IMG/VR virus record: IMGVR_UViG_3300035660_001145
Location: 1-43,953 of that record
Direction: 5' to 3' (one strand)
Length of the DNA: 43,953 nt
Origin: a virus
Shown here: positions 33,348-43,362 of the stretch, one piece after another
Position numbering within the stretch: position 1 is the first letter of the stretch
How the letters are laid out: each line of letters begins with the position of its first letter
Translations under genes and position numbers: made by a program
Notes under the pieces: generated by a model
Seen by the model: only the letters and a program-made list of their open reading frames with translations
Told to the model about the DNA's origin: nothing
The model's database searches: none

Positions 33348-34877
33348 ATGGAAGAGATAAAATTGGTCCAGTTAAAGGAAGCACAACACAACGCGCGCAG
33401 GACATTCGATGAGGCAAAACTTAAAGAACTGGCGGCCTCGATAAAAGAAAAAGGTGTGCTTCAGGCAATCATAGTCAGGCCGTCGAACGGAAAATATGAG
33501 ATAGTCTGCGGTTCGCGCAGGTTCCGTGCTGCAGTAATCGCCGGCCTATCCTCGATTCCGGTGATTATAAAGGATTATGACGATAAACAGGCCCTGGAAT
33601 GCCAGGTTATCGAGAACTTGCAGCGCGAAGATATCCACCCGCTTGAAGAAGCCGAAGGCTATGAAGTTTTAATGAAGAAACACGGCCATAAATCCGCAGA
33701 TGATATCGCCGCCAAGATCGGAAAATCCAAAGCCTATGTCTATGAGCGCCTGAAACTCTGCGAGTTGATACCGGAGAATCGCAAACTTTTTTACGAAGGA
33801 AAATTTTCCCCATCTACAGCTCTCCTGGTGGCCCGGGTGCCGGCGCACCTGCAGAAAGAAGCCGGTAGTAAAGTTGCGCATGGAAAATACCGCGGGGATG
33901 AGCCAATGAGTTTCCGCATAGCCAAGGAATATATCCACAAGCATTTCATGTTGCAACTAAAAGAGGCCCAGTTTGATACAAAAGAAAAAGGCTTGGCCGG
34001 TAAAAGTTCTTGCATCGAATGCAACAAACGTACCGGAACACAGAAAGAGCTTTTTAAAGACGTTTCCAGTGCAGACGTCTGCACTGATCCGGGGTGCTTC
34101 GAGGCCAAGAAAAATGCGCACACGCAACGCGCGATTGCAAAATTTAAAGAGCAAGGCAAAGAAGTCGTCTCCCAGGATGAAGCTAAAAAGCTCTTCAAGT
34201 ATGAGAATGATGAATCCCCGGATAATAAATTCATCAATATCGATAAAGAACATTATTATAGGGGACAATACCTGAAACTTCGTCCGATTGTCAAATCCTG
34301 TAAAGATATCAAGACTACTTTCGCCGTGCAACCATTTTCCGGAAAGATTATTGAAATGATAAACAACACGGACCTGCCCAAAATATTTAAAAAAGCAGGA
34401 ATAAAAGACAGGGATTCGTCAGGATCATCCGGAGCAAACGCCGCGGTTGAACGTAGGAAGGAACGCGTCCGTAAAGCCACAGTCGGGAAAATATGTGCGG
34501 CAATAGTCGAAAAGGTTAATGCGGATAATAAATTATCATTTTTACGCTTATTCGCCGAGGCGGTTTTGAATGAGGCATGCTTTGATGCGCAACGGATGTT
34601 CATCCAGCGCAGGAACCCGGCCATCAAGGGGGATGCCATCCGGATAGAGGTCAAGAAAATTTTCCTTGCGCTTAAAGATGAGGAGCTTTTCGGTTTCTGT
34701 TTTGAAATACTTATATTAAATCACGCCTGGAGCACATGGGGCAGCCAATATGGCCCAATCACTCCTAAGGTCTGTAAACATTATAAGATCGATACCGCAA
34801 AGCTTAGGGCTCAGGTGGAAGCCGAATTCAAGGCCAAAAAACAGAAGAAACCGGTTAAGAAGGAACTGACGAAGTGA
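33348..34877 (+). CDS. ParB-like CTPase/nuclease-domain protein with zinc-finger middle
   Basis: This 509-residue protein starts with a ParB/Spo0J domain (about 1-170): NARRTFDEAKLKELAASIKE, GSRRFRAA at about 55-62 (the CTP-binding motif, with Ser for Glu), ENLQREDIHPLEEAEGY and a HTH (DDIAAKIGKSKAYVYERLKL). The middle part has CIECNKRTG...CTDPGCFEAKK, a likely zinc site. The C-terminal 200 residues are unlike chromosomal ParB and are not recognised. There is no ParA beside it, so plasmid-like partition is unlikely; similar phage proteins lie in replication regions. AGGAGGAGGATATG marks the start. Confidence 0.8.
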   Translation: MEEIKLVQLKEAQHNARRTFDEAKLKELAASIKEKGVLQAIIVRPSNGKYEIVCGSRRFRAAVIAGLSSIPVIIKDYDDKQALECQVIENLQREDIHPLEEAEGYEVLMKKHGHKSADDIAAKIGKSKAYVYERLKLCELIPENRKLFYEGKFSPSTALLVARVPAHLQKEAGSKVAHGKYRGDEPMSFRIAKEYIHKHFMLQLKEAQFDTKEKGLAGKSSCIECNKRTGTQKELFKDVSSADVCTDPGCFEAKKNAHTQRAIAKFKEQGKEVVSQDEAKKLFKYENDESPDNKFINIDKEHYYRGQYLKLRPIVKSCKDIKTTFAVQPFSGKIIEMINNTDLPKIFKKAGIKDRDSSGSSGANAAVERRKERVRKATVGKICAAIVEKVNADNKLSFLRLFAEAVLNEACFDAQRMFIQRRNPAIKGDAIRIEVKKIFLALKDEELFGFCFEILILNHAWSTWGSQYGPITPKVCKHYKIDTAKLRAQVEAEFKAKKQKKPVKKELTK

Positions 34878-35561: not shown

Positions 35562-36188
35562 ATGACCAACGACATCTGGGGTATCTGCTGTCCGGGGCCA
35601 TCCCTTGCGCTCTATCAGATCCAAAAACTTATTTCTCTGGATAATCCTTTCTGCCTTATCGCGGTCAATAGCGCCATCCTCCTGGTAGATTTTAATTTCG
35701 ATTATTGGGCCGTCCAGGATATTGAAGTCTTTGAGACTGTCCTTAAGAAAGTGGATCCTCACAACATCCCAAAACTCTATTCAACCCGGCTTTGGGTCCC
35801 CAGCCGGTGGCTAACCGACATCCCCGCGCATTACGATCCTTTGAACTATCACTTCCAGGCCTTTTATAAAGAGACTTTTCCTGCAGATTCAAACGAAGAT
35901 TTTAACAAAATTGCGCCTTTCGCTCACCACATCATCTGGAGGGAATATACTACATTTACCGCTATCGCCCTGGCAATCATAAACGGCGCAAAAGACATCC
36001 GGCTCTATGGTGCGGATATGGCCGGCAAAGGATACTTCATAGAAGGAGTGGAAAACTACCGCACCCGCCTTGACGAAAAGCGCTGGAGCAATGAGCACCA
36101 TTGGTTCGAATGCTTGGTAAGCGAATGCGCTGCGCGTGGAATCATCTTAACCCGGGTAGGAACCAACAATAGAGGAGATTCTCAATGA
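35562..36188 (+). CDS. DUF115/MptE-like protein, first gene of glycan cassette
   Basis: This 208-residue protein has a Rossmann-type start with a GPSL motif (CCPGPSLALYQI at about 9-20), as in the DUF115/MptE-like family found with surface-glycan genes, and later IALAIINGAKDIRLYGADMA. In bacteria such proteins are linked to flagellin or polysaccharide modification; the archaeal MptE is a pterin pyrophosphokinase. The stop overlaps the next ATG, so it is made with the large transferase. Enzyme activity is not predictable; a nucleotide-sugar or polyprenyl-linked role is the best guess. Confidence 0.65.
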   Translation: MTNDIWGICCPGPSLALYQIQKLISLDNPFCLIAVNSAILLVDFNFDYWAVQDIEVFETVLKKVDPHNIPKLYSTRLWVPSRWLTDIPAHYDPLNYHFQAFYKETFPADSNEDFNKIAPFAHHIIWREYTTFTAIALAIINGAKDIRLYGADMAGKGYFIEGVENYRTRLDEKRWSNEHHWFECLVSECAARGIILTRVGTNNRGDSQ

Positions 36189-38218
36189 TGGACATCATCA
36201 TCCCAACCTGTAAAAAAGAAAGTGAGATAACGCCTCTTTTAGAAGAAATCAAACTAACCGCCACGGGTAATTATCAGATCATCATCGCCTCTGATTCCTT
36301 AAAAAGTGCTTCTCAAAACCGCAACATCGGCCTCAACAAAGCCACATCTGATTTCCTGATCATGATTGATGATGATATCAGGGGCCTACCTGACGGATGG
36401 AACGAAACCCTGGTTAGTTATCTTAAGAAAGATAACTCCATAGCTATAGTTTCCGCCCGCCTCATGAACACTGTCGGTACACCCGGGCCTATGGTCGGAA
36501 ATAACCACAACCTTTCGCCCGAAGTCATAGAAGTAGACGAACTTCCAACAGCCTGTATAGCCTTTCGCCGGTCAGGGATCCGCTTTGACGAGAACTTCCG
36601 CGGCAGCGGCTTTGAAGACAATGATTTCTGCAAACAGATGCCCGGGACTTTCATCATCACGAATGCGGTCAAAGTAACCCATATCAATGAAGCAAAAAAT
36701 CAGGGTGGAGAGAACTGGCTCTTTAATGAAGTTTATTACAAGGCTAAATGGATGGAAATAATTGCCTTTTATAAAACTTTTGACGGGGAGGAATTTGCCG
36801 AGGCAAGCATCAAAGCCATTTATCCGCACGTAACAAATATCCTCATGCTCCATTCCGGCATAAATTGGCTTGGAGAAAAAGGAGACAATAAAGTTAAAGC
36901 CGCCATCCAGAACTTTATCGATAAAGGTGGCGACCCGCAACAAAAGATCATCCAGGTCGATTATAATTCTTCTTCCCAATCCGAACAATACAAATTCGGA
37001 TTTGAATATATCAGGGATAAAATCAAGACCAAGAAAGAATGGTATATCCTTATCCTGGATTGCGATGAAATATGGGAAGAGCGCGACCTCAAACGCCTTA
37101 AATTCGAAGCGATTAAAGACAAAATTCATAATGTCTTCACATGCTCCCTGTATACTTACATCAAGCAACTCTTCTATAGAATTGATCCCCCTGAAATGCT
37201 GCACCCTATCGTCCTAGTTGCCGGCCATAAGACCCAATCAATGGAAGGGATTCGGGGTAATAAACTTATACCTTTTAACCGCCGCGACTTTCCTGAAATC
37301 TTTCTTCATCACTTTACCTATGTCCGTAAGGACTTCGAAGCCATCAAACGCAAGTTTTTCCAGACTAAGCAAGCCGAACTTAATCCCCCCATGCGCGAAG
37401 ACTGGCTGGAAACAATCTGGCCCAAGATACCTAATGTTACCAATTTCCATCCCTCCAAGAGTTATGAACATAGCTGGCAGCAGCTTACAGTAGTAACCAA
37501 AGACCAACTTCCGGAAGCAATCCGCGGCCTTAGCTTTTTGGAAAATAAGAAATGGAAAGATATCGTCAAAACCATCCATCCAGACGAATGCGTAGAAGTG
37601 CCGGATATGCAAGTATACCAGCAGAATAAAGAATATTTCATTCAGCAAGGCTTTACGGAGGATATCCTGCGCGAGTTCTTTCCTATCCTTGAACAATCAA
37701 TCTGGTCAACTTTCCAGCTTTTTATGCTCGCTCGCCGTTTCAAAGCAGGCGGCCGCATCGTAGAAATCGGCAGCGGCCAGGGCGGCTCTATCTGTACCAT
37801 GGGCCTGGGCGTTGATAGAAATCCCGCTGTCGAACTTATCAGTATAGATAAATTCCAGCCCTATGATGAAAAGACCCATGCCGGCTGGATGTTTAATGTT
37901 AATCGTTTCAGTTATAAAAAATTCGTTTATAATCTCGAAACTCGTAATATCAAAGCCCGCAATATTTTTAAATGGAGCTTTGAAGCCGTAGGCGATATCG
38001 AAGATAAAAGTTGCGACATGATCTTTATCGATGGCAACCACAGCTATCAAAGCGTCAAAGATGATATTAACTGGTATCTGCCCAAGATCAAAGAAGGCGG
38101 CATCATCTGCGGCCATGACTTTCATCCGCGCTTCCCCGGGGTGATGATCGCAGTAGAGGAAGCCTTTGGAAATAGTTTTGATGTAATGGACCAATCAAGC
38201 ATTTGGATTAAATTATAA
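36185..38218 (+). CDS. Tri-domain glycosyltransferase-glycosyltransferase-methyltransferase
   Basis: This 677-residue protein joins three enzyme-like parts. Residues 1-210 are a GT2 domain (MDIIIPTCKKESEITPLLEE, metal motif MIDDD at about 60-64). Residues about 215-440 are a second GT-A-like domain with ILDCDEIWEE at about 290-299. Residues about 515-677 are a class I methyltransferase with EIGSGQGGS near 526 and FIDGNHSYQSVKDDI near 615, of the type found in glycan-capping enzymes. A polymerase plus methyl-terminator, as in O-antigen synthesis, would fit such a fusion. It is cytoplasmic (no signal or membrane helix). Confidence 0.78.
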   Translation: MMDIIIPTCKKESEITPLLEEIKLTATGNYQIIIASDSLKSASQNRNIGLNKATSDFLIMIDDDIRGLPDGWNETLVSYLKKDNSIAIVSARLMNTVGTPGPMVGNNHNLSPEVIEVDELPTACIAFRRSGIRFDENFRGSGFEDNDFCKQMPGTFIITNAVKVTHINEAKNQGGENWLFNEVYYKAKWMEIIAFYKTFDGEEFAEASIKAIYPHVTNILMLHSGINWLGEKGDNKVKAAIQNFIDKGGDPQQKIIQVDYNSSSQSEQYKFGFEYIRDKIKTKKEWYILILDCDEIWEERDLKRLKFEAIKDKIHNVFTCSLYTYIKQLFYRIDPPEMLHPIVLVAGHKTQSMEGIRGNKLIPFNRRDFPEIFLHHFTYVRKDFEAIKRKFFQTKQAELNPPMREDWLETIWPKIPNVTNFHPSKSYEHSWQQLTVVTKDQLPEAIRGLSFLENKKWKDIVKTIHPDECVEVPDMQVYQQNKEYFIQQGFTEDILREFFPILEQSIWSTFQLFMLARRFKAGGRIVEIGSGQGGSICTMGLGVDRNPAVELISIDKFQPYDEKTHAGWMFNVNRFSYKKFVYNLETRNIKARNIFKWSFEAVGDIEDKSCDMIFIDGNHSYQSVKDDINWYLPKIKEGGIICGHDFHPRFPGVMIAVEEAFGNSFDVMDQSSIWIKL

Positions 38219-38229
38219 GGAATTTATAA

Positions 38230-39258
38230 ATGAACCCCTGTAACTGCGCCGGCATAAACGTCACCTGGTCCTGCAATGCCAGCTGCAAGCATTGCTTCTA
38301 CCGCCGCAATCCTAATCTGCACAAAAATATCCATAAACCCCTGCAGGAGATAATCAAAGAAATGCGCGAAGGCCTTTCTCGCGGAATAAATAGAATCGTT
38401 TTAATCGGAGAAGGCGAGCCAATGCTGCATCCGAAGATTAAGGAGATAATTATTGCCGCCGGAACTTGCGGGCTAAAAAGCAACATCATCACAAACGGCA
38501 CGATACCTATTAAAAATTATGAAGAACTTTTTAAACTCGGCCTGAATCATATACAAATATCTGCTCATGCAATAGGGGAAGCCCTTGATGAGATTATGGA
38601 ATACAAAGAAGCAGGCAAGAGACAGGGAGAGCTTATGACTTGGTTAAAGGAAAATAAGCTGCCATTTCGCGCTAATATTTCCCTACAGCAGTTAAATTAT
38701 AAACAGCTTCCCGAAACAACCCAGTATCTTATCGATAAAGGCGCCTTCCACATCGCGCTTTTAGGTTTCTTGCCGCACTATGAATGGAAGGATCATGTCG
38801 CGGAGATAGCTGTTCATCCTGAGGAACTAAGGCCTTATATAGAAAAAGCCGCGGAGTTATTAATCTCTTCAGGTGCCTACTTCACCATTCGTTATCATCC
38901 TATATGCCACCTAAGCCCTAAATACTGGAAACATGTAGTCAATGCTCGGTATGTCCTTTATGACCCCTGGGAATGGGATTACGGCCGATACCAGCCAAAC
39001 CCTGAAGCTGTCTGGCCGGCAGCCCTGGCAATGGGGGAAAGCACGGCCATTCAAGGGCAGCCATGTGAAGATTGCACAATGAAGCTTCATTGTGGAGGTT
39101 GGAATAGATATTATGTCGCAGCCTTCCAGGGGGCGGCACTAAAGACTATTCAAGAAATTCCCTTTGAGGGTCCAGGATTTAAACACCCGGGAACTTTTCA
39201 CGATATGAACCCGGCCAACAGCCTTAAAGGATATTGCGTAAATGGGAGGCCCGTCTAG
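38230..39258 (+). CDS. Radical SAM enzyme with SPASM/twitch-like C-terminus
   Basis: This 342-residue enzyme has the CX3CX2C motif (Cys15, Cys19, Cys22 in TWSCNASCKHCFYR) that binds the 4Fe-4S cluster for AdoMet cleavage, followed by VLIGEGEPMLHPKIKEI and SNIITNGT as AdoMet-binding strands. A C-terminal cysteine group (Cys279, Cys282, Cys288 in PCEDCTMKLHCGG, and one near the end) suggests an auxiliary cluster, as in SPASM enzymes acting on peptides, sugars or other large substrates. It lies between two glycosyltransferases. An AAGGAATTTATAA site precedes the ATG. The substrate is not visible. Confidence 0.85.
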   Translation: MNPCNCAGINVTWSCNASCKHCFYRRNPNLHKNIHKPLQEIIKEMREGLSRGINRIVLIGEGEPMLHPKIKEIIIAAGTCGLKSNIITNGTIPIKNYEELFKLGLNHIQISAHAIGEALDEIMEYKEAGKRQGELMTWLKENKLPFRANISLQQLNYKQLPETTQYLIDKGAFHIALLGFLPHYEWKDHVAEIAVHPEELRPYIEKAAELLISSGAYFTIRYHPICHLSPKYWKHVVNARYVLYDPWEWDYGRYQPNPEAVWPAALAMGESTAIQGQPCEDCTMKLHCGGWNRYYVAAFQGAALKTIQEIPFEGPGFKHPGTFHDMNPANSLKGYCVNGRPV

Positions 39259-40025
39259 TGAATGAGAAAATAGCGATCATCTATACTACATTCTTAAGGG
39301 ATTGGCTGGTCAAGAAAACAATAATATCGATATTTAAAAATTGGCAATATCGTTTTACTCTCTTTATCGGAGATCAGGGTCGTGAAGATTACAAAGAATT
39401 CCTCGATAGTTTTAAAATATCCGCCTTAAAAAAAGAGGGTATTTTATGGGCTACTCAAACATACGATTGCGGAGTATCTTTATCTCGAAATGATTTAATA
39501 GACCAGGCAGCATATCTTAAATTTAAATACTGCCTTTTAACCGCAGATAGCATCCAATTCATCCCCGAAACAGTCAATAATCTCGATAAGGCTGTCCAGT
39601 TCCTCGAAAATCATTCTGAAGTAGGTATCCTAGGTTTTGACCTTAAGGATAGGATCCCCTGGGAATACTTCATGGATATAAAAAATAACAGTTTTCTTCT
39701 CACAAAAACTGGCCCTATTGAAACAGATCCTGTAACCGGACTACATTTCAAACGTTGTGATATCTGCAGGCAATTCTTCCTGACCAAGATAGATTCTATC
39801 CTTGCTGTTAAATGGGACGAGCAATTAAAAACCGGAGATCATGAAGACTTCTTCTGGAGATATAAGCAGGCAGGCTATAAAGTTTGCTGGACACCAGATA
39901 TCAGCGGCCAATATATCGATTACAAGCCGGAGGAATATCTGCGATATCGCAATCGGCAATATAAGGAGTTCAGGAAGATATTATTTAAGAAACATAATTT
40001 AAACAATTGGATTGAATATGCATGA
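39258..40025 (+). CDS. Glycosyltransferase (GT-A-like), last of the cassette
   Basis: This 255-residue protein has a GT-A pattern: IAIIYTTFLRDWLVKKTIIS, then a CLLTADSIQF metal-binding-like strand and KTGDHEDFFWRYKQAGYKV as the catalytic-base region. It starts with GTG sharing a base with the radical SAM stop (TAGTG); a TTG further upstream is possible but lies inside the radical SAM gene. It contains the cysteines of RCDICRQFF, which could bind metal. Donor and acceptor are unknown; the tight spacing says it works with the radical SAM enzyme. Confidence 0.72.
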   Translation: MNEKIAIIYTTFLRDWLVKKTIISIFKNWQYRFTLFIGDQGREDYKEFLDSFKISALKKEGILWATQTYDCGVSLSRNDLIDQAAYLKFKYCLLTADSIQFIPETVNNLDKAVQFLENHSEVGILGFDLKDRIPWEYFMDIKNNSFLLTKTGPIETDPVTGLHFKRCDICRQFFLTKIDSILAVKWDEQLKTGDHEDFFWRYKQAGYKVCWTPDISGQYIDYKPEEYLRYRNRQYKEFRKILFKKHNLNNWIEYA

Positions 40026-40239
40026 TACATCCTGCCTAAGTCCGCAGGTAATCAAAAATAAAATAAAGAAAACAATTAAGGGAATAGTATGGAGCGGTTT
40101 TATAGGAGAGTATAAGAAACCTCCAATCTATATAATCCAGAAACCTTATGACCAAACTGCTGACGGAATTTTTATTGATGATATTCTTAGAAGGTTTTTA
40201 AAGAAAAAGGTTGAAATTACAATAAAGAAAATTTTATAA
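40018..40239 (+). CDS. Small basic hypothetical protein
   Basis: This product is 73 residues from the ATG at 40018, which overlaps the glycosyltransferase stop. It is basic, with a strand-rich centre (IVWSGFIGEYKKPPIYIIQK) and KKKVEITIKKIL at the end. It has the size of a small regulator or a substrate carrier and lies between the cassette and the resolvase gene. It is not recognised; a link with the radical SAM gene as partner is possible. Confidence 0.45.
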   Translation: MHDTSCLSPQVIKNKIKKTIKGIVWSGFIGEYKKPPIYIIQKPYDQTADGIFIDDILRRFLKKKVEITIKKIL

Positions 40240-40255: not shown

Positions 40256-40648
40256 ATGGAAATTAACTTCATCCTTACACGTCTACCGCCATCTTTAAAC
40301 GAGCTTCTGCATAAACACTGGATCCATCGCCATAGGCTGCAGGAAGCATTTGATGCACAAGTGAGTGTGGAGTGGCTAAAGCTCGGTCGCGTTGTCTTTA
40401 TGCTGCCGGTAAGATTAATATATGTCCTAAGCTTCCCAGCACGCCGCGTGAGGGATATAGATAATTATATCGGAGGGACAAAATTGATAACCGATTCACT
40501 AAAGAAAACATTTCTATTCCGGGATGATTCGGAATGGATTAAAAGTATAGAGGTGAGATTCATTAAAGGCAAAGAGGGCACGGCAGTATTCATTAAGGAA
40601 GCAATTAACCAAAAGGAGGAAGCATGGCAAAGAAAGAAACCGTTTTAA
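40256..40648 (+). CDS. RusA-like Holliday junction resolvase
   Basis: This 130-residue protein matches the RusA family in length and motif: RLPPSLNELLHKHWIHRHRL, then RDIDNYIGGTKLITDSLKKT with the catalytic Asp-x-Asp-Asn, and FRDDSEWIKSIEVRF. RusA dimers resolve branched DNA at the end of phage replication and before packaging. Its 3' end overlaps the first DGR target by 25 bases, so the two genes are translated together. Confidence 0.85.
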   Translation: MEINFILTRLPPSLNELLHKHWIHRHRLQEAFDAQVSVEWLKLGRVVFMLPVRLIYVLSFPARRVRDIDNYIGGTKLITDSLKKTFLFRDDSEWIKSIEVRFIKGKEGTAVFIKEAINQKEEAWQRKKPF

Positions 40649-41088
40649 GCGTAACAAAGGAGATAAAGGATATCCTTAAGAATCGCTTACCAGTTCCGAC
40701 AGGAAAAATGCCGCAGAAACAGCTTAATACCACGCATTTTATTCGTAACTTAGATGGCACCGTAACCGATAAGCAGCTTAATCTTATTTGGTATCCCACG
40801 TTTTCCAAGAAAATGACTTGGGAAGAAGCAAAAAAGGAATGCGAAAAGATAGGTTGCCGGCTGCCTACAACCCATGAGCTATTCAGCTTAGTGGAAATCA
40901 ATGAATACGACCCGGCCATAGATAAGGAGATTTTTCCGGATACCAAGACCGATGATTGGTATTGGACGCAAGATAGTTGCCCTTGGAGTGCAGTCGGCGC
41001 GCGGGGTGTGGACTTCTATAATGGCGACGTGGGCAATTGTTTTAAGGGCATCAGCAATTATGTGCGGCCCGTCCGTTCCAGCCAGTGA
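40624..41088 (+). CDS. DGR variable protein 1 (DUF1566/C-type-lectin-like)
   Basis: This 154-residue protein has a DUF1566-like domain (HFIRNLDGTVTDKQLNLIWY, then GCRLPTTHELFSLVEIN, FPDTKTDDWYWT), whose C-terminal part has the C-type-lectin-like fold used by DGR targets. The last 36 residues are the variable repeat, ending NYVRPVRSSQ. AAAAGGAGGAAGC supplies the start. There is no signal peptide, so it is not exported by the usual route; it is either a virion protein or intracellular. Its repeat is less close to the template than that of the second target. Confidence 0.82.
   Translation: MAKKETVLSVTKEIKDILKNRLPVPTGKMPQKQLNTTHFIRNLDGTVTDKQLNLIWYPTFSKKMTWEEAKKECEKIGCRLPTTHELFSLVEINEYDPAIDKEIFPDTKTDDWYWTQDSCPWSAVGARGVDFYNGDVGNCFKGISNYVRPVRSSQ
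40977..41085 (+). repeat. DGR variable repeat VR1
   Basis: This 109-base copy aligns without gaps to the template at 42179-42287. By hand I count 24 differences, 17 at template adenines and 7 at other bases. The last 25 bases, which should guide homing, contain two of them. It lies at the 3' end of target 1, followed by TGA. Confidence 0.85.
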
Positions 41089-41128
41089 TTAGGCAGTTTG
41101 ACAATTTTTTAATTTAAAAGGAGGAGAC

Positions 41129-41653
41129 ATGAAACAAAAACAGATGGAAAAAATTTTAGAAGACCGTATTGATATTTCAGGAATAGCAAAAGATATGCCG
41201 GCCGCAGATTATGAACTAGCCAAGAAAAAGATAGCAGCATCCGGAAAGCGTTTCATAGATAACAAGAATGGCACCATTACCGATATTAAAACAGGCTTTA
41301 TCTGGGTAAAGAATCCCCATACAGACCTGCCAAAGGAATTTAAAAGCGGGATGCCTTGGCAGCAGGCCATAGACTCCTGCAAGGGACTTAATTTCGCTGG
41401 TTACAAAGACTGGCGCCTACCTACAGCTGAAGAGTTAATCTCTCTTATAGACTGGGAAGCCGGGGCTAAGAGCAACGAGCCGACCATAAATACAAAGTTT
41501 TTCCCGGATACCAAAACTAGTTGGTACTGGACTATTACGCCTTGCCCTTGGGTTGCAGGCTACGCGCGGATGGTGGACTTCTGCAATGGCAGCGTGGGCG
41601 GCGGCCGTAAGGACGGCGGCAATTATGTGCGGCCGGTCCATTCCAGCCAGTGA
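41129..41653 (+). CDS. DGR variable protein 2 (DUF1566/C-type-lectin-like)
   Basis: This 174-residue protein is a paralog of target 1: RFIDNKNGTITDIKTGFIWV, YKDWRLPTAEELISLIDWE, then FPDTKTSWYWT, with the variable repeat at the C-terminus. Residues that differ from the template-coded Asn/Asp are V, G, Y, D, C, S, G, G, G, R, G, G, scattered over the presumed binding face. AAAAGGAGGAGACATG marks the start. No signal peptide is seen. It is the target closest to the template and to Avd and is probably the active one. Confidence 0.88.
   Translation: MKQKQMEKILEDRIDISGIAKDMPAADYELAKKKIAASGKRFIDNKNGTITDIKTGFIWVKNPHTDLPKEFKSGMPWQQAIDSCKGLNFAGYKDWRLPTAEELISLIDWEAGAKSNEPTINTKFFPDTKTSWYWTITPCPWVAGYARMVDFCNGSVGGGRKDGGNYVRPVHSSQ
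41542..41650 (+). repeat. DGR variable repeat VR2
   Basis: This 109-base copy aligns without gaps to the template. All 19 differences I count are at template adenines (A to G, T or C); every other base is the same. The invariant 3' part (TATGTGCGGCCGGTCC and on) is identical, as needed for the initiation of homing. This pattern is the signature of adenine-directed mutagenesis. Confidence 0.95.
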
Positions 41654-41687
41654 ATTGATTTTTTGACATTTTCCAAGCGAGGTAAAG

Positions 41688-42035
41688 ATGAGTCTTTACG
41701 AAGAACTTCCAGTATATAAAACAGCCCAAGACATGGCAGTTTATTTTGAGAAAATAGTCCGGCATTTTGATAGATACAACAAATATACCTTCGGAGTAGA
41801 GATAAGAACCTTGGCACACAGAATTCTTATCCTGGTCGCCAAAGCCAACACTAAGCAAACGAGAAAAGAATATCTTATGGAGGCACTGGATAAACTGGAA
41901 GAACTTAAAATTATCTTAAGGCTCGCTAAAGAAGTAAAAGCTTTTAATTCTTTTAAGAGTTTTGAATTCGCAACCAAGTCAGTCATTGAAGTATCGAAGC
42001 AGTGCGAAGGGTGGTTTAAAAGCCAGAATTCCTGA
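41688..42035 (+). CDS. avd: Avd-like DGR accessory protein
   Basis: This 115-residue protein has the four-helix-bundle pattern of Avd and ribosomal-S23-like proteins: YKTAQDMAVYFEKIVRHFDR, then YTFGVEIRTLAHRILILVA, TRKEYLMEALDKLEELKIIL and FATKSVIEVSKQCEGWFKS. Avd forms a basic pentameric barrel that binds the reverse transcriptase and the template RNA and is needed for priming. It lies between target 2 and the template, the usual order. AAGCGAGGTAAAG precedes the ATG. Confidence 0.88.
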   Translation: MSLYEELPVYKTAQDMAVYFEKIVRHFDRYNKYTFGVEIRTLAHRILILVAKANTKQTRKEYLMEALDKLEELKIILRLAKEVKAFNSFKSFEFATKSVIEVSKQCEGWFKSQNS

Positions 42036-42178
42036 AACGGTTTACTTTCAGGAAGCGTGTGAATCAGAAATCACTGGGCGCTTATTCCACCTTAAAACGG
42101 TATAAGAATACAAGGAGTGGTACCTTAAGAGGATCTGCTCCTGAAGGCCTTAAAGGGCATAAAGTGAATAAGCAAGAG

Positions 42179-42287
42179 TTGCCCTTGGAATGCAGACAAC
42201 GCGCGGATGGTGAACTTCAACAATGGCAACGTGAACAACGACAATAAGGACAACAACAATTATGTGCGGCCGGTCCATTCCAGCCAG
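42179..42287 (+). repeat. DGR template repeat TR
   Basis: This 109-base repeat is the unmutated template. It is rich in AAC and AAT codons (in the target frame NVNNDNKDNNN), so that adenine mutagenesis can change many residues. It lies in the 226-base gap between Avd and the reverse transcriptase, but its last 26 bases overlap the transcriptase ORF, whose ATG (42262) and likely ribosome site (AAGGA, 42246-42250) lie in it. The bases 42036-42178 before it probably belong to the template RNA's structured part. Confidence 0.95.
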
Positions 42288-43362
42288 CGGCTTAAAAGAA
42301 AGCATCTTCTCATTTAAAAATATATACCAGTGTTATTTCGATTGCCGGCGCAAGAAACGTAATACCCACAATGCGCTGCGCTTTGAGATAAACGCCGAAG
42401 AGAACATTTTTAAACTTGAGCAAGAGCTAAAAAACAGGACCTACCATCCTTCGCGCTCAATTCTTTTTGTTGCAAAAAAACCCAAGCTAAGAGAGATATT
42501 CGCAGCAGATTTTCGAGATCGTGTAATACATCATATCTTAATCAATTCCTTAGAGAAAATCTGGGAGTCAATCTTTATCCACGACTCCTACGCAAGCCGG
42601 GATAAAAAAGGCACACACAAGGCAGTTGTCCGATTACAAAGTTTTTTGCGGAAGATCACCAAGAATGGCCATATCCGGGCCTATTACCTGCAGCTGGATA
42701 TTAAAGATTTCTTCATCAATATAGACAAAGATATTCTCTTTGCTCTAATTAAGCCTAAGATAACCAATCCCGAAGCCTTATGGCTTATACAAAAAATCCT
42801 CTTTTGGGATTGCACAACGTCCTATATCCAAAGAGGCGACAAAAATCTTTTATCAAACATACCGGCCAACAAAAGCCTTTTCGGTAAAGAGAACCGACGC
42901 GGCCTGCCGATTGGCAACCTTACCAGCCAATTCTTTGCCAATATCTACCTGAATGAATTAGACCAGTTTGTAAAGCACACGCTTAAGGCGCATTATTACC
43001 TGCGCTATGTAGACGACTTTGTTATTCTCTCCTCAAATGCATCAGAATTAAACATTTGGGAGATAAGGATTGAAGAATTTCTCATTAAACAACTTAAACT
43101 ATGTCTACATCCTAAAAGACGTAAACTATTGCCTATCTCAAATGGTATCGACTTCTTGGGTTATATTGTCCGACCAGGGTATATTCTGGTCCGTAGGCGC
43201 GTAGTAAACAATCTCAAAGAAAAAATCAGACAGTTTCGCCAGGCAAAGGTAAAAGACTTAAGAAAATTTAAGGACTCAATAGCATCATATTTAGGACATT
43301 TTAAATGGGCAAATAGCTATCGGCTTAAACAAAGATTAATAAAAAAATGGATCAATATATAG
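42262..43362 (+). CDS. DGR reverse transcriptase
   Basis: This 366-residue enzyme is of the DGR/retron class: QLDIKDFFINID at about 144-155 (first catalytic Asp146), GLPIGNLTSQFFANIYLNEL at about 214-233 (the DGR-type motif 4) and YVDDFVIL at about 249-256. Motif 5 onward (LHPKRRKLLPISNGIDFLGY) is present, so it is complete. No other ATG lies between 42262 and the conserved part, so translation should begin inside the template repeat. It makes error-prone cDNA from the template RNA with errors at adenines. Confidence 0.95.
   Translation: MCGRSIPASGLKESIFSFKNIYQCYFDCRRKKRNTHNALRFEINAEENIFKLEQELKNRTYHPSRSILFVAKKPKLREIFAADFRDRVIHHILINSLEKIWESIFIHDSYASRDKKGTHKAVVRLQSFLRKITKNGHIRAYYLQLDIKDFFINIDKDILFALIKPKITNPEALWLIQKILFWDCTTSYIQRGDKNLLSNIPANKSLFGKENRRGLPIGNLTSQFFANIYLNELDQFVKHTLKAHYYLRYVDDFVILSSNASELNIWEIRIEEFLIKQLKLCLHPKRRKLLPISNGIDFLGYIVRPGYILVRRRVVNNLKEKIRQFRQAKVKDLRKFKDSIASYLGHFKWANSYRLKQRLIKKWINI

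Follow-up and report, generated by a model that had tools for sequence, protein, structure and literature searches.

The complete IMG/VR virus record IMGVR_UViG_3300035660_001145 (43,953 bases, the whole of which is the window to which the coordinates refer) carries four coupled genes, A to D, on the plus strand at 35562-40025. This cassette is very probably one variant of a glycan-assembly module conserved among phages. Its gene B encodes two glycosyltransferase domains (GT-B1 and GT-B2) and a methyltransferase, and gene C encodes a radical S-adenosylmethionine (SAM) enzyme. A core consisting of two GT-A glycosyltransferases, usually a methyltransferase, and this distinct radical SAM enzyme travels together in many unrelated uncultivated phages. 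The full interpretation, that of a cytosolic glycan assembly and tailoring module which most likely decorates a virion protein, is put forward with about even confidence.

The linkage was found in both directions among 2.9 million viral contigs (IMG/VR). The forward scan, with gene C or alignments derived from it, returned 11 contigs with 43-50% identity. Two of these (L005 and L020) begin at or beside the C gene, and the upstream side is intact in the other nine. GT-B1 lies within 5 kb of C in all nine intact contigs and GT-B2 in eight of them. Scanning in the other direction, with an alignment of GT-B1 alone, returned 41 loci; these include several duplicate or near-identical contigs, and the alignment itself was derived from C-bearing loci. 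Where at least 5 kb of downstream sequence was present (24 loci), C was found in 18 and GT-B2 in 18; the loci lacking C or GT-B2 are chiefly the most distant GT-B1 relatives. Both glycosyltransferases and C occur together in 20 contigs, across which the distance matrices of GT-B1, GT-B2 and C are correlated (Mantel r 0.63, 0.45 and 0.45; p 0.0002 each). In addition, contig L001 splits gene B into three genes of one cluster, corresponding to residues 3-189 (39% identity), 190-456 (31%) and 457-676 (38%), and this cluster includes a C protein 46% identical to that of the window. In L004, L007 and L009, the second glycosyltransferase is fused to the methyltransferase. Linkage, fusion and fission, and correlated distances together indicate that the module is an evolutionary unit. 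Conserved linkage in about 20 contigs goes beyond chance and bears out an earlier note on this DNA, which had taken the genes for a coupled set; the domains of B and gene C proved not to be independent of each other.

The phages that bear the module differ from one another, having unrelated terminases and portals, and all the viruses in which the module was seen are uncultivated. A search of 50,697 phage records did not find it, and neither GT-B2 from L050 nor GT-B1 from L058 had a match in the phage collection. The whole of gene B, used as a query against the viral contigs, also gave no match, the fusion being unusual and the patterns too specific. The methyltransferase, which is usually present, is of the Methyltransf_24 or FkbM type. 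Variable extras include MptE-like, GT32/GT7-like, sulfotransferase, acetyltransferase-like and DegT aminotransferase genes and a second, SPASM-type radical SAM gene. A glycan module is supported by those extras that are of glycan type (FkbM, sulfotransferase, GT32-like and DegT aminotransferase). Hydropathy showed a strong hydrophobic segment in just one of 139 module-span proteins. The second radical SAM protein in L047 (10636-12648, 670 amino acids) is apparently interrupted by an intein (Intein_splicing, sub-threshold at E 1.2e-4). Related phage glycan clusters in L053, L058 and L059 carry GT-B1 with DegT aminotransferase, epimerase-like and other glycosyltransferase-like genes, without C, upstream of the large terminase.

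The protein of gene B (677 amino acids) is a GT-A/GT-A/Methyltransf_24 fusion. GT-B1 (36185-36751), a GT2 enzyme of GT-A fold, matches the Pfam model Glycos_transf_2 (E 9e-13, 48.9 bits against a cut-off of 23.3), and its DDD (36368-36376) and ED (36614-36619) motifs are invariant across seven relatives. GT-B2 (36752-37552) was undetected by Pfam. Its AlphaFold model (pLDDT 93) and Foldseek indicated a GT-A fold, the top matches being SpsA, the WrtF fucosyltransferase and SunS at modest TM-scores of 0.4-0.5. A DxDE motif (37058-37069) is invariant in an alignment of 20 sequences, and GT-B2 was assigned to the GT-A fold with a DxD metal motif. The third domain (37553-38218) is a class I methyltransferase that matches PF13578, Methyltransf_24 (E 1.8e-18, 67.8 bits against a cut-off of 26.3). 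The fusion had been predicted from the translation, and was recovered by Pfam for domains 1 and 3 and by AlphaFold and Foldseek for domain 2.

Gene C (38230-39258) belongs to the radical SAM superfamily (PF04055, E 1.3e-18). Its CX3CX2C motif (CNASCKHC, 38272-38295) is invariant in an alignment of 25 relatives, as are four auxiliary cysteines, C226 (38905), C279 (39064), C282 (39073) and C288 (39091). All seven cysteines are also invariant in 31 sequences, some of them bacterial and one from a Campylobacter phage. A single four-cysteine cluster is plausible. The earlier description of gene C as a radical SAM enzyme with auxiliary cysteines was therefore correct, and the catalytic residues checked in B and C (DDD, ED, DxDE, the methyltransferase profile and CX3CX2C) are intact. 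The core of the AlphaFold model (pLDDT 94.6) resembles SkfB, SuiB, viperin and BlsE by Foldseek, and PqqE is also among the best structural and sequence neighbours. The SPASM pattern is CX9-15GX4C ... CX2CX5CX3C ... C, with seven cysteines and two auxiliary clusters. Like the SPASM/twitch enzymes PqqE, SuiB, SkfB and BlsE, gene C combines a radical SAM core with a C-terminal cysteine-rich domain containing CX2CX5C, but it has just four auxiliary cysteines (C226 and CX2CX5C) and no Pfam SPASM match, and SPASM membership was rejected. Assignment to viperin was rejected at 51 bits against a cut-off of 180 (NCBIfam viperin_w_prok). Similarly, the PqqE, MoaA and RiPP (ribosomally synthesized and post-translationally modified peptide) maturase equivalogs were rejected, the best score being 69 bits against 380 (TIGR04317); none of the 25 best-listed NCBIfam models reached its cut-off. 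N238 and a CGGxN motif are near-universal in the C proteins of phage modules and different in most outliers. A virus-only radical SAM family in the broad sense does not hold, as distant relatives occur in bacteria, and the CGGxN variant was seen only in phage module sequences.

These bacterial relatives were sought in 379-398 genomes from each of four phyla. Two of the four gave moderate matches (E below 1e-35 or 1e-40), in 9 of 379 and 3 of 392 genomes. A bacterial contig (L087, 2943-4676) carries a natural GT2-radical-SAM fusion of the same family as gene C. In L088, the gene C relative adjoins two GT2 genes and an ABC-2 exporter pair. On a bacterial chromosome (L074, 7506-9835), a radical SAM relative overlaps a GT2 gene, with SDR, Rieske-type and amidohydrolase-like genes nearby; this locus is possibly a separate undescribed cluster. 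No obvious glycan genes surround the gene C relative in L077. The GT2 neighbours and fusion in L087, L088 and L074 support the view that the gene C family works on glycans.

Genes A and D are accessory members, with counterparts present only sometimes in other modules. The four-gene set originally proposed was thus retained for the domains of B and for C, which form the core, but not for A and D. Gene A (35562-36188, 208 amino acids) is weakly MptE/DUF115-like. It scores below the cut-off of PF01973 (E 0.017, 15.3 bits against 34.6), and hhalign related it, over 41 columns (P 3e-4), to MptE-like proteins adjoining the module in L047, L049 and L051, which themselves reach PF01973 at E 1.7e-6. 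It is probably a sugar- or nucleotide-sugar-handling transferase, and had no match in the phage collection. Gene D (39258-40025, 255 amino acids), a divergent GT-A-like protein, has no significant Pfam match. By phmmer (77 bits) it matches a GT2-LicD-GT2 protein encoded about 3 kb from the module of L017 (13749-15935). The ED motif is kept in gene D, and the DXD position reads ADS. Counterparts of gene D, 24.7% identical, are carried by 181 Salinibacter phage records.

The tight coupling of the four genes, also noticed earlier, was confirmed. Genes A and B overlap by 4 bases, and B and C are separated by 11. The preferred start of gene D is GTG at 39258, inside the stop of gene C (TAGTG) and with a GGGAGG ribosome-binding site; a program-made list of open reading frames places it upstream, at TTG 39234. 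A plus-strand frame of 75 amino acids without a confident family match (40012-40239) overlaps the end of gene D and is possibly the last gene of the run. At third codon positions, genes A-D are all biased towards C (GC3 skew -0.13 to -0.38), a bias that few other genes of this phage show and that fits their acquisition as a unit. None of the four has a predicted membrane segment by hydropathy, gene A being borderline.

Of 26 distinct module-bearing contigs, 21 place the module close to a gene for terminase, portal, capsid, connector or tail, as called from gene maps read by eye with PHROG and Pfam checks. The order is capsid, module, connector, tail in L047, and capsid, connectors, module, tail in L054. 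In L001, L019 and L042 the module is upstream of the portal, and L001 and L019 have the terminase on its opposite flank; in L006, L008 and L050 it is upstream of the large terminase. A position among packaging, head and tail genes moderately favours late expression and a virion role. This usual position, together with the lack of membrane export machinery, makes a virion protein the most likely acceptor, a proposal judged to have an even chance of being right.

In the mechanism envisaged, GT-B1 and then GT-B2 would add sugars sequentially onto the acceptor in the cytosol of the infected cell, and the methyltransferase would cap a hydroxyl by O-methylation. Gene C may alter a sugar before or after transfer, by epimerization, oxidation or deoxygenation, using a 5'-deoxyadenosyl radical and an auxiliary iron-sulfur cluster. 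A and D would diversify the product, and the resulting glycan could shield or tune the particle.

Several observations weigh against this proposal. Structural genes fill much of phage genomes, which makes the adjacency weak evidence: counted over 27 and with a base rate of 60%, P is about 0.04. The module of the window itself lies outside any structural block, and those of L018, L025, L038 and L048 have no recognized structural neighbour, with replication genes near two of them. Among solved structures, none closely matches the C-terminal domain of gene C (the highest TM-score, by query length, is 0.60). Also, bacterial relatives of gene C sit in surface-polysaccharide or other chromosomal loci, and the Campylobacter phage homologue is not beside annotated glycosyltransferase genes.

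The module might instead remodel a glycan on the host surface, either during infection or in the lysogenic state, by way of a host lipid carrier and exporter, and so bring about superinfection exclusion or serotype change. An integrase is carried by the window phage, the L088 relative lies beside GT2 genes and an ABC exporter, and in pelagimyophages the hypervariable host-recognition region holds glycosyltransferases and added radical SAM gene cassettes, for which the authors favour O-chain modification (PMC7029224). This explanation is considered rather unlikely, as the cassette contains no flippase, polymerase or membrane glycosyltransferase and module-span proteins almost never have a hydrophobic segment. 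The placement among packaging, head and tail genes suggests late expression, and module composition varies strongly among phages.

Some base hypermodification pathways use radical SAM enzymes. DNA hypermodification by phage glycosyltransferases is possible according to work cited in PMC12619734, and the module could modify phage DNA, giving bases that are glycosylated and modified further. Neither the module loci nor the scanned window genes, of which the small frames were only partly scanned, contained a recognizable hydroxymethyl-pyrimidine or TET-like gene, and the partner genes (Methyltransf_24, FkbM, sulfotransferase and aminotransferase) are in keeping with glycans attached to something other than DNA, which is thus an improbable substrate. 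A RiPP system, with the radical SAM enzyme maturing a peptide that the glycosyltransferases glycosylate, would agree with SkfB, SuiB and PqqE as nearest neighbours of the gene C core, with the peptide S-glycosyltransferase SunS among the fold matches of GT-B2, and with the small frames flanking the cassette. Yet no conserved small frame accompanies the core in the gene maps (in which frames of at least 70 amino acids were clustered), no transporter or protease is present, and gene C falls short of the full SPASM cysteine pattern and of the NCBIfam maturase cut-offs, which leaves this reading improbable as well. A loose cargo of host-derived genes in a variable region, sharing no pathway, would be in keeping with the variability of A and D and with the single glycosyltransferase or radical SAM genes common in phages, but it is most improbable in view of the two-way linkage, fusion and fission, and co-divergence.

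The other genes of the window include, by PHROG profiles, terminase, portal, head protease, major head protein, tape measure, Dit and integrase. The module follows ParB and precedes RusA and a putative diversity-generating retroelement. Its position between early genes and RusA, as first described, is therefore right for the window but does not extend to most relatives, where the module is in the head, packaging or tail region. A ParB-like gene (33348-34877) and a ParB-methyltransferase fusion (634-2007) lie at opposite ends of the record. In L079 and L080, whose ParB is 65-66% identical, ParB is joined to the terminase genes without a module, and nothing beyond weak 22-23 bit matches to C was found elsewhere in these records. 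The module thus looks like an insertion into the ParB-to-terminase interval. The window record is probably circularly permuted for the same reason, and if so the module lies between ParB and TerS/TerL. At 40624-43362, two paralogous frames with similar ends (40624-41088 and 41129-41653) are followed by a reverse transcriptase (42262-43362), and the whole looks like a diversity-generating retroelement. Co-occurrence of the module with this element, raised in the earlier note, was not found: RVT_1, which the same search detected in the window, was present in 0 of 15 other module-bearing records and in neither L079 nor L080.

Known targets of glycosylation by phage-encoded enzymes are DNA, certain host surfaces and a small number of virions. 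The gtr systems require a membrane flippase and a lipid-carrier glycosyltransferase. The cassette resembles gtrABC serotype conversion in placing glycosyltransferase genes on a temperate phage, but it lacks both of these components. Without membrane proteins of gtr type, it is not a standard serotype-conversion module, as had been supposed, and gtr-type conversion was rejected. In mycobacteriophages, the glycosylation of virions described by Freeman et al. (2023), according to PMC12619734, also involves phage-encoded glycosyltransferases, and cytosolic decoration of the capsid or tail tube is the role proposed here. The passages on it in PMC12619734 mention no radical SAM enzyme and no core of two glycosyltransferases and a methyltransferase. 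The pelagimyophage region, compared by description only, differs in having separate genes resembling auxiliary metabolic genes and no conserved set of this composition (PMC7029224). Glycosyltransferase and radical SAM genes were reported there and in Tasman Sea viromes (PMC7150976), and the authors made no connection between them. On a Brachyspira plasmid, a radical SAM gene is reported to adjoin a glycosyltransferase gene (PMC4267127), which indicates that the pairing is not unique to phages. Matches of gene C in the phage collection were confined to 15 Campylobacter phage records. One radical SAM protein of phages CP220 and CPt10 (PMC2853527) is a full-length distant relative with all seven cysteines (24-27% identity, 142 bits), although its gene has thymidine kinase and phosphoesterase genes as neighbours.

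The literature searched, which included few subscription papers, yielded no description of a radical SAM and phage glycosyltransferase set like this and no conserved module built around a radical SAM enzyme; to that extent, the suspicion of an undescribed system was well founded. The particles of module-bearing phages are probably coated with a modified sugar of an unusual kind. More tentatively, the radical SAM family, the paired glycosyltransferases and the methyltransferase may build a radical-modified glycan on the phages' own virion proteins, with sugars that the host does not make, as a widespread and undescribed system. The module would add radical chemistry to phage glycobiology and would offer an explanation for some of the radical SAM genes labelled auxiliary metabolic genes. 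It would also provide a candidate, open to testing, for the way in which environmental phages decorate their particles.

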